A DNA stretch of 64,000 nt from assembly GCA_943842245.1 (NCBI GenBank), contig CALTAJ010000001.1, positions 744,001 through 808,000 of the forward strand. The letters run 5' to 3'. The position numbers and the translations under genes are program-made. Source of the DNA: an uncultured Flavobacteriaceae bacterium (GTDB lineage: Bacteria > Bacteroidota > Bacteroidia > Flavobacteriales > Flavobacteriaceae). The notes beneath the pieces were generated by a model. That model saw nothing but the letters and a program-made list of their open reading frames with translations. It ran no database searches and had not been told where the DNA came from. The first letter of the stretch is position 1. Each line of letters begins with the position of its first letter. Shown here piece by piece: positions 27,586 to 29,932 of this stretch.

Positions 27586-27616
27586 TTGAAAACTAATCAA
27601 CTGGTAATTATATTTG
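27586..27616 (+). promoter_or_regulatory. promoter of small RNA / leader unit
   Basis: TTTG ending at 27588 (TTG 27586-27588) and TATATTTG (27609-27616) with a 20-bp spacer form one of the best consensus promoters in the window (TTG-N19/20-TAnnTTTG). Transcription would start near 27621-27623. The next protein start is 170 bp away, behind a terminator, so this promoter mainly drives a short RNA. Confidence 0.65.
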
Positions 27617-27677
27617 AATAGGAGTAATTCAAGCTGTGACAACAGCAAAGTTTAACTAAATATGAAAGGAGGTGTCT

Positions 27678-27740
27678 ATGTTTTATGATAATCATTTAAG
27701 GAATTCGAGACAGCAGATACCCACAAGTGGTGTGCTGTAG
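27678..27740 (+). CDS. 20-residue ORF behind a perfect Shine-Dalgarno
   Basis: ATG at 27678, stop TAG at 27738-27740; product MFYDNHLRNSRQQIPTSGVL. Its ATG lies 3 bases after GAAAGGAGGTG (27664-27674), which is complementary over 11 bases to the usual 3' end of bacterial 16S rRNA. SD sites are rare in Bacteroidetes, so this is notable. An overlapping ATG at 27662 gives only 8 codons. The second half of the ORF, and its stop, lie in hairpin 2, so ribosomes on the ORF would affect folding. It may be a leader peptide, a small protein, or chance. I recognise no family. Confidence 0.45.
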   Translation: MFYDNHLRNSRQQIPTSGVL

Positions 27741-27760
27741 CTTTCCTTATCTATTTTTAA

Positions 27761-27787
27761 AGCGGATCGATGGATCCGCTTTTTTTT
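27761..27787 (+). terminator. strong intrinsic terminator
   Basis: AGCGGATC (27761-27768) and GATCCGCT (27773-27780) form a perfect 8-bp stem with loop GATG, followed directly by a run of eight T (27780-27787). The dioxygenase ATG is at 27792, so the terminator sits where its ribosome-binding region would be. Confidence 0.85.
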
Positions 27788-27791
27788 CAAT

Positions 27792-28742
27792 ATGCAACAA
27801 ATTCCTAATGCCGATTTAAAAAAATTTCTCTCTGGAAATTCTAAAACAAAAGCAGCCTTTGCCAAAAAAATAGGAAGATCCTTTCAAGAGATTGGATTTT
27901 TAGCTTTAAGAGGTCACTTTTTAGAAGATAAACTACAAGATGACTTATACAAAGAAATCCATTCTTTCTTTAAACTTTCAAATAAAATTAAATCTTCTTA
28001 TGAGATCAAAGGAGGTGGGGGACAAAGAGGCTATACTGGTTTTGGAAAAGAGCATGCTGCTGGAAGGTCCATTGGAGATTTAAAAGAATTTTGGCATTTT
28101 GGACAAGACTTAAACACTAAACCCTATCTGAAAAACAGGTACCCGGAAAATATAATCGTTAAAGAATTAGAGGGCTTTAATAAAATTGGAAATTTAGTGT
28201 TTCTCAAACTTGAAAAGACAGCAAAGATTATCCTACAGGCTTTGGCTCTTTATCTGAAATTAGACGAGTACTATTTTGATGAATTTATCGATGGAGGAAA
28301 TTCTATCCTTAGAGCAATTCACTATCCAGCTATTACAGAACCTCCAAAGGAAGCAGAACGTGCAGCTGCTCACGGAGACATTAATCTAATAACCTTATTA
28401 ATTGGAGCTCAAGGCGGCGGTTTACAGGTTCTAAATCGCCAAAACCAATGGATTGATGCGATTGCAAAGCCTGATGAATTGATGATTAACATTGGTGATA
28501 TGCTTTCTCGCTTGACAAATAATAAACTTCCTTCTACTGTTCATAGAGTAGTTAACCCTCCAAAAGAAACATGGGGCAGCTCACGCTATTCTTTGCCCTT
28601 TTTTATGCATCCCAGCCCAGAAATGCCTCTTAATTGTATTCCACAAACTATTGGAAAAGATAATCCAAAAAAATATCAGGATATTCTTGCTGGAGAATTT
28701 TTACACCAACGTTTAGTTGATTTAGGACTTTTAGAAAAATAA
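27792..28742 (+). CDS. isopenicillin N synthase-like 2-oxoglutarate/Fe(II) dioxygenase
   Basis: Soluble non-haem iron oxygenase of the IPNS/2OG-dioxygenase superfamily, 316 residues. The iron triad is visible: His194-x-Asp196 (AAHGDINLI) and His251 (PSTVHRVVN); Arg265-x-Ser267 (RYSLPFF) binds the co-substrate carboxylate. An N-terminal DIOX_N-like region includes FQEIGFLALRGH. The true reaction is unknown; bacterial members oxidise diverse small molecules, and there are no beta-lactam synthesis genes nearby. Its ATG follows the terminator T-tract by 4 bp, so expression seems to need read-through or an unseen start. Confidence 0.93.
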   Translation: MQQIPNADLKKFLSGNSKTKAAFAKKIGRSFQEIGFLALRGHFLEDKLQDDLYKEIHSFFKLSNKIKSSYEIKGGGGQRGYTGFGKEHAAGRSIGDLKEFWHFGQDLNTKPYLKNRYPENIIVKELEGFNKIGNLVFLKLEKTAKIILQALALYLKLDEYYFDEFIDGGNSILRAIHYPAITEPPKEAERAAAHGDINLITLLIGAQGGGLQVLNRQNQWIDAIAKPDELMINIGDMLSRLTNNKLPSTVHRVVNPPKETWGSSRYSLPFFMHPSPEMPLNCIPQTIGKDNPKKYQDILAGEFLHQRLVDLGLLEK

Positions 28743-28744
28743 TT

Positions 28745-29932
28745 TTATTTCACTCTGATCTCCTCTAATACTGCCCTCCCTAATGCTCCTAAAAAAGGGA
28801 TTCCAATCTGTTCAAATTCATAAATATCATCGTTGAAAATCATATTTTCATTTACCAAAATAGTTGCCGTTAAAAAAAATTCAATATTATTATTTTCATC
28901 CCTTATGTAAGCTACATCTGTTAAGGTGCCATATGCATATCCAACTTTATTATAAATTCTAATCTCTGGGATCATAGCCCCTTTTTGGTCTCCGTAAATT
29001 AAAAACTTCCCAAAGCTATCCCAATATTCTGCATTTTTATAGTTTGGATTATTACTTTCTAAAGTAGTTCTACTCATCCATTTTCTTAAAAACTTATAAT
29101 CTTCATCTGTCAAATCAAATTGTTCCTGGTTAGAGAAAATATCAGGAAAAATAATTCGTTTAAGAATACCTTGAAGGTTACGTATTGAGATTCGGTTTTT
29201 TTTTTCAAAGTTCATAGGTTTACTAACTAAAACATCTAAACTATTATAGCCTTTCCCTTTTAAAACTCCTTTTAATTTATTGGGTTTTAATTCTAATTCT
29301 GCGTGAAGAGAAGATTGATGATAAAGTATATTCTGATCTTTATCCAAAAAAGTGTACTCCCAAGTATTTACGTTATCTGCACCAAAAAGAAATTTATGAT
29401 AAACTTGTGTATGGTTTAAACCCCTTTTTGTTAATTCCTTATTTATATAATCGCGCCCTAAAAAGTCAAAAAGGTAATTATATGCATCGTTGTCACTCAC
29501 TAAAAAGATCTTTTTTATTAAATGATGTAATGTCAACTTCCCTTTATTATGGGTTGTATCTCTCTGAATTATTGTATCTCCTTCTTTTGTAGAAATAAAA
29601 AAAGGAGTATCTCCAGTAATTATAACACCTTGAGATTTCAAAATATTTAATTTTTGTAGAACGAGAATGGCGATTGGGAGTTTTACTGTACTGGCAGGAT
29701 AAAAATATCTTCTTTCATCGATTTGGTATTCTTCTTCCTCAAAAAAAATCTTTTCTGTTGGAGTTCTTTTAATTTTAGTTAAAAGAATTTGAATTTCGTG
29801 TTTTTCTTTATTCTTTAAAACTTCTTGTATTTCAGAATCAGGGTGCTTTAAAGCAAGATCTAAAATTGCTGTTTGAGGATAACATTTAATACAGAAAATA
29901 AAATAAAGAAGTAGATGATACTTTCTTAACAT
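28745..29932 (-). CDS. class A beta-lactamase-related serine hydrolase, secreted
   Basis: Exported protein (hydrophobic N-terminus ending about residue 19) with the serine beta-lactamase/transpeptidase fold. Motifs in order: SxxK as STVK (Ser81, Lys84), SDN (146-148), and a KTG-like KVGYAYG near residue 328. 395 residues is about 100 longer than a true class A beta-lactamase, with inserts between the SDN and KTG motifs. This kind of protein in Flavobacteria may be a peptidase or esterase rather than a resistance enzyme. It ends 2 bp from the convergent dioxygenase gene and lies just downstream of the sugar nucleotidyltransferase. Confidence 0.85.
   Translation of the reverse strand: MLRKYHLLLYFIFCIKCYPQTAILDLALKHPDSEIQEVLKNKEKHEIQILLTKIKRTPTEKIFFEEEEYQIDERRYFYPASTVKLPIAILVLQKLNILKSQGVIITGDTPFFISTKEGDTIIQRDTTHNKGKLTLHHLIKKIFLVSDNDAYNYLFDFLGRDYINKELTKRGLNHTQVYHKFLFGADNVNTWEYTFLDKDQNILYHQSSLHAELELKPNKLKGVLKGKGYNSLDVLVSKPMNFEKKNRISIRNLQGILKRIIFPDIFSNQEQFDLTDEDYKFLRKWMSRTTLESNNPNYKNAEYWDSFGKFLIYGDQKGAMIPEIRIYNKVGYAYGTLTDVAYIRDENNNIEFFLTATILVNENMIFNDDIYEFEQIGIPFLGALGRAVLEEIRVK

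Follow-up and report, generated by a model that had tools for sequence, protein, structure and literature searches.

We have identified in the genome of an uncultured Flavobacteriaceae bacterium a conserved cassette of ca. 165 nt that may well work as a mini-mRNA for bS21-deficient ribosomes, carrying after its stop codon a segment that would be able to close its own Shine-Dalgarno (SD) sequence. We hold this view with moderate confidence, judging from sequence and by analogy: the involvement of bS21-deficient ribosomes is proposed because of the published case of rpsU and the match of the SD to the 16S rRNA, and the gate because of predicted folds. The cassette represents a new RNA/small-ORF family: it is a second target of specialised ribosomes or else a small-protein gene of an unusual kind. 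In PMC9976891, bS21-lacking ribosomes are presented as a clear case of specialised bacterial ribosomes. If our reading is true, a second conserved message in the form of a stand-alone structured RNA, with an SD that equals or surpasses that of rpsU, would widen their control beyond rpsU and open to test whether specialised ribosomes have a regulon, and the small-genome, uncultured Flavobacteriales would gain a new RNA family.

All parts of the cassette are on the forward strand of the window, i.e., the whole 64-kb stretch of DNA that was analysed. It begins with a promoter-like element (27586..27616) composed of TTG (27586-27588), 20 bases and TATATTTG (27609-27616), which we take to be of the Bacteroidota -33/-7 type. 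Hairpin 1 (GCTGT-GACA-ACAGC, 27633..27646) is followed by an extended SD, GAAAGGAGGTG (27664..27674), a near-complete complement of the 16S rRNA 3' tail that was absent from the initial annotation of this DNA. Three bases separate it from the start, at 27678 (TCT-ATG context), of a 20-codon ORF, MFYDNHLRNSRQQIPTSGVL plus TAG (27678..27740). An intrinsic terminator (27759..27787) closes the unit, with a 10-bp stem and GATG loop (27759-27782) and a run of eight T (27780-27787); then come CAAT and the ATG of a dioxygenase gene at 27792. Promoter, hairpin 1, ORF and terminator are all located where the initial annotation had placed them. The fold of the interval has a z of -3.09, with one of 200 dinucleotide shuffles equally stable. 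A simple perfect-stem scan found three terminators of this kind in the window (near 978, 27758 and 48916), so they look rare in it. The next opposite-strand gene (28745-29932, minus strand) carries an STVK motif and presumably encodes a serine hydrolase similar to beta-lactamases. The initial annotation also described a small but complete transcription unit, not accounted for by any listed gene, and this is supported. In Rfam 15 neither the window cassette nor nine relatives reached the gathering score of any family. Five sub-threshold Rfam matches were taken as chance. Pfam and NCBIfam contained nothing for the short peptides, our literature searches listed no report of the RNA, and the available parts of PMC5069720 and PMC2864571 hold nothing bearing on it.

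The 16S rRNA of this genome ends in GGAACACCTCCTTTCTAGAG, and the 11-mer GAAAGGAGGTG occurs in the genome just three times: in the 16S tail, at rpsU and at the cassette ORF. Across 38 genomes of the genus there were 74 occurrences, 31 at the cassette, 22 at rpsU, five in the 16S tail and 15 inside long ORFs (one copy, in G032, was left unclassified). Likewise, AGAAAGGAGGT was found 13 times in ten genomes of named relatives (eight cassette, two 16S, one rpsU and two inside long ORFs). The duplex predicted with the genome's own 16S tail (RNAduplex) reached -21.2 kcal/mol for the cassette ORF and -19.9 for rpsU, against a mean of -1.8 for 54 ORFs of the window, of which the lowest was -12.0 and two were at -10 or below. 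When 81 unique elements were paired with the 16S tail of the window's genome the median was -21.8 (range -17.1 to -21.9). The cassette thus falls below the -13 kcal/mol used to recognize genes of bS21-lacking ribosomes, and its strong SD is exceptional in its genome, as judged by exact 11-mers and by the energies of the 54 window ORFs. Its predicted pairing with the 16S 3' tail equals or exceeds that of the rpsU SD.

In Bacteroidia the anti-SD is concealed in ordinary ribosomes and exposed in those without bS21, and PMC9976891 shows that Flavobacterium johnsoniae ribosomes without bS21 favour extended SDs. The same paper describes a mutation of bS21 Tyr54 that raised the expression of strong-SD reporters; the bS21 of our genome has Tyr54. 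In that source rpsU resembles the cassette in having an extended SD against the 16S tail, with a predicted pairing near -20 kcal/mol, and in being transcribed on its own, as the cassette appears to be from its sequence. Unlike rpsU, the cassette codes for a 20-residue peptide instead of bS21, is enclosed by hairpins and has a segment able to pair with its own SD or ORF. The conclusion given there, from 200 Flavobacteriales genomes, is that control by bS21-lacking ribosomes is limited to rpsU; an unannotated ORF like this one would probably escape a gene-based SD scan. Besides, a strong SD alone leaves use by ordinary ribosomes possible.

The ORF itself looks translated. Across the main clade's 25 unique ORFs of 20 codons, the third codon positions vary most (summed variation 4.04 vs. 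2.32 and 2.36), dN/dS is 0.36, and uncorrected pN/pS among main-clade ORFs is 0.44 in frame vs. 0.81 and 1.11 in the other frames. Peptides from different clades, on the other hand, differ greatly. From this coding signature within the clade and the strong change between clades we conclude that translation and length are kept, the peptide being apparently constrained only within clades. An autonomous unit with a coding signature could also be a dual-function small RNA or a small-protein gene, with an SD that is strong for other reasons and has no link to bS21, and the loops GACA (hairpin 1) and GATG (terminator), constant in the genus, could be sites for base pairing or for a protein. Like the cassette, dual-function small RNAs (e.g., SgrS/SgrT and SR1) are short autonomous RNAs with a short ORF and a terminator, and by sequence the cassette has its own promoter and terminator. 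It differs from them in that few of its parts are as constrained as the SD and in that no trans target is known. Moreover, SD use is otherwise rare here and the remaining classified 11-mers lie inside long ORFs, which argues against an SD of such strength unrelated to bS21. We regard this alternative as possible but rather unlikely.

Two alternative pairings of the segment that follows the stop codon were predicted. In the first, the anti-SD-like TCCTTATC (27744..27751) pairs with the SD. For the genus, RNAalifold gives this SD-closed fold as the consensus, with 99.3% of the alignment cells pairing; six of the seven pairs never vary and the helix has no covariation in the genus. The complementarity between the SD and this segment exceeded that of mononucleotide shuffles (p < 0.05) in 54 of the 81 unique elements and did not in the other 27; the element of the window, with p 0.52, and those of close relatives belong to the latter. 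The predicted paired probability of the window SD is 0.65. The SD helix disappeared when 47 diverse sequences were folded automatically; MAFFT aligns the post-stop segment poorly between clades (this alignment of diverse relatives used a strict cut-off and excluded antisense matches to the terminator). GATACC (27716..27721) is a possible partner of GGTGTC (27671-27676), which adjoins the SD, with 97.9% of cells pairing and no pair changed on both sides in the genus alignment.

In the second pairing, which we call helix B, TAAGGAA within the ORF (27697..27703) pairs with TTCCTTA 3' of the stop codon (27743..27749). Over nine clades, drawn by ourselves from the peptides and with L091 dropped (short spacer), the native mean was -8.9 vs. 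-6.8 for cross-clade combinations, and only nine of 20000 permutations reached the native value. Compensatory examples are AAGGAGT:ACTCCTT (L104), AAGAAGT:ACTTCTT (L130) and AAAGAGT:ACTCTTT (L119). Within the genus alignment helix B has one-sided changes only, and some clades gain little from their native helix (B_LGQQIP, native -7.4). Coevolution of the cassette ORF with the post-stop segment is supported by the comparison between clades. In the genus, covariation was seen in hairpin 1 and in the terminator stem, three of the five pairs of the former and four of the ten of the latter having changed on both sides. The terminator is kept in the consensus folds; the single-sequence fold pairs part of its T run with promoter bases. 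As for the ACAGC/GCTGT segments, which had been described as exchangeable, they are present in the window and missing from some relatives (L104 and L071 keep hairpin 1 without the ORF copies). An exchange between hairpin 1 and the ORF was rejected, as it is not conserved among relatives.

Taking these observations together, the mini-mRNA we propose could work as follows. Ordinary ribosomes would hide their anti-SD in the bS21/bS18/bS6 pocket, and the cassette ORF would be read mainly by 30S subunits without bS21, as published for rpsU in F. johnsoniae, so that the RNA would report bS21-deficient ribosomes and compete with rpsU for them. The post-stop segment would have two possible partners: the ORF, in helix B, which leaves the SD free, and, in many clades, the SD itself, which is then closed. 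On its way into the ORF a ribosome would open helix B and free this segment, which could shut the SD behind it and limit re-initiation. Candidate outputs are the peptide, the RNA, or the capture or titration of ribosomes. A bolder version, which we find quite improbable, would make the cassette an RNA alarm, a second output of bS21-free ribosomes translated only when ribosomes lack bS21, that would also tune the rpsU feedback by taking up ribosomes that rpsU would otherwise use. An example of a trigger would be a phage-encoded bS21 displacing the host protein, a phage link that appears as speculation in the discussion of PMC9976891.

The RNA could also bind bS21 (or bS18/bS6) directly through a segment resembling the 16S tail, in the manner of the ribosomal protein mRNAs that mimic rRNA. 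This would fit CACTCCTTTCTA (L104, L150, L151), which resembles CACCTCCTTTCTA of the 16S, but the TCCTTATCTA of the window has a weaker likeness to the tail and we consider such binding very unlikely. A non-ribosomal RNA linked to bS21, OLE, is reportedly about 600 nt long and found in Bacillota; the cassette would share with it the link to bS21, here a proposal, and differs in size and phylum.

The genomic neighbours bear on the function that had been suggested originally, a transcription attenuator or leader of the dioxygenase. Leader-peptide attenuators have a short ORF within hairpins and a terminator at the end, as the cassette has, and in the genus the terminator lies directly before the dioxygenase. 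However, a homologue of this gene was downstream in 33 of 80 loci among the pattern matches listed, the next ORF elsewhere being, e.g., a glycosyltransferase in L066 and, on the opposite strand, an ETF gene in L067. In the 72 loci in which strand was scored (eight others were too short) the next ORF of at least 80 aa was on the same strand in 54 and on the opposite one in 18. The latter include the eight loci whose peptides are of the MSIxKNS type, where both neighbours are on the other strand. Because the gene downstream is not constant, and in these 18 loci does not even share the strand, we conclude that, by sequence, the cassette is an autonomous transcription unit. A small RNA was among the options named in the initial annotation. 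There is no constant same-strand gene downstream, as a leader-peptide attenuator would have, and dioxygenase attenuation as a general function is highly unlikely. Beyond the genus the idea is not supported; within it, the dioxygenase start only a few bases after the terminator leaves read-through possible.

Upstream, the order ribE-nhaP-element is common in loci of the Flavobacteriaceae type, where the element follows an nhaP-type antiporter, and the element is kept where nhaP is absent (L077, L096, L113). The MSIxKNS loci have a Na/Ca exchanger family gene upstream (Pfam PF01699 in L104), and their downstream neighbour encodes a secretion-tail domain. The loci with the element beside a Na/Ca exchanger family gene are L104 (the one tested with Pfam), L119, L130, L133, L140, L150, L151 and L164. 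That two unrelated cation antiporters adjoin one element may be a coincidence.

The cassette interval was recovered by blastn in 34 of the 38 genus genomes, its own included, with 73-100% identity. That it could be a chance structure in an intergenic gap, as homologous gaps without structure or ORF would have indicated, is refuted by this count, and given the conservation, covariation and coding signature such an origin has practically no probability. The four genomes without it are incomplete (56-82%), and a covariance model search of them gave no match; nhaP was not found in three and ends at the contig end in the other (G001), so these absences are likely assembly gaps. All 34 loci keep GAAAGGAGG, TA..TTTG upstream, the GATGG of the terminator and an ORF of 20 or 21 codons. 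Near hairpin 1, TA..TTTG is present in 64 of the 81 unique elements, compared with a mean of 5.5 and a maximum of 12 in shuffles.

At larger distances, the covariance model was run on 299 genomes of the family and detected the element with E no higher than 1.7e-8 in 13 of them, which belong to eight genera and have sizes of 1.3-2.2 Mb. Altogether 35 family genomes had a model match, and 22 weak ones (E from the 6e-4 region to 0.01, one 8e-5), several of them at loci without the SD element, were not counted. With E 1e-5 and stricter filters, the order (1/395) and class (1/295) samples yielded its own genome only. This does not mean absence, because the MSIxKNS-type relatives came by pattern instead. 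A pattern scan of genome contigs found at least 80 stretches with the element, some of the records being the same contigs as in the genus genomes. Judged by their titles, the 80 matches listed all come from Bacteroidota; most are Flavobacteriaceae or Flavobacteriales, a few are Crocinitomicaceae and one is from the Cryomorphaceae. Among them the ORF has 19-21 codons in 74, the exceptions being L085, which contains Ns, L091, with 25 codons, L102, where the start codon is gone, and L110, L147 and L154, which are cut by the end of the stretch or contig and are the three without the GATGG terminator found in the other 77. A match in a viral contig (L165) was rejected, having neither ORF nor terminator.

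The carriers appear to be small-genome, uncultured Flavobacteriales, and the record titles suggest a marine origin. In L102 (ca. 7251) an AGG replaces the ATG start codon of an otherwise intact element, either by assembly error or by decay. Two MAGs (UBA11891 and ERR315863_bin.92) have two elements each on different contigs (L135 and L138, L147 and L161), which could be mixed bins or true second copies.
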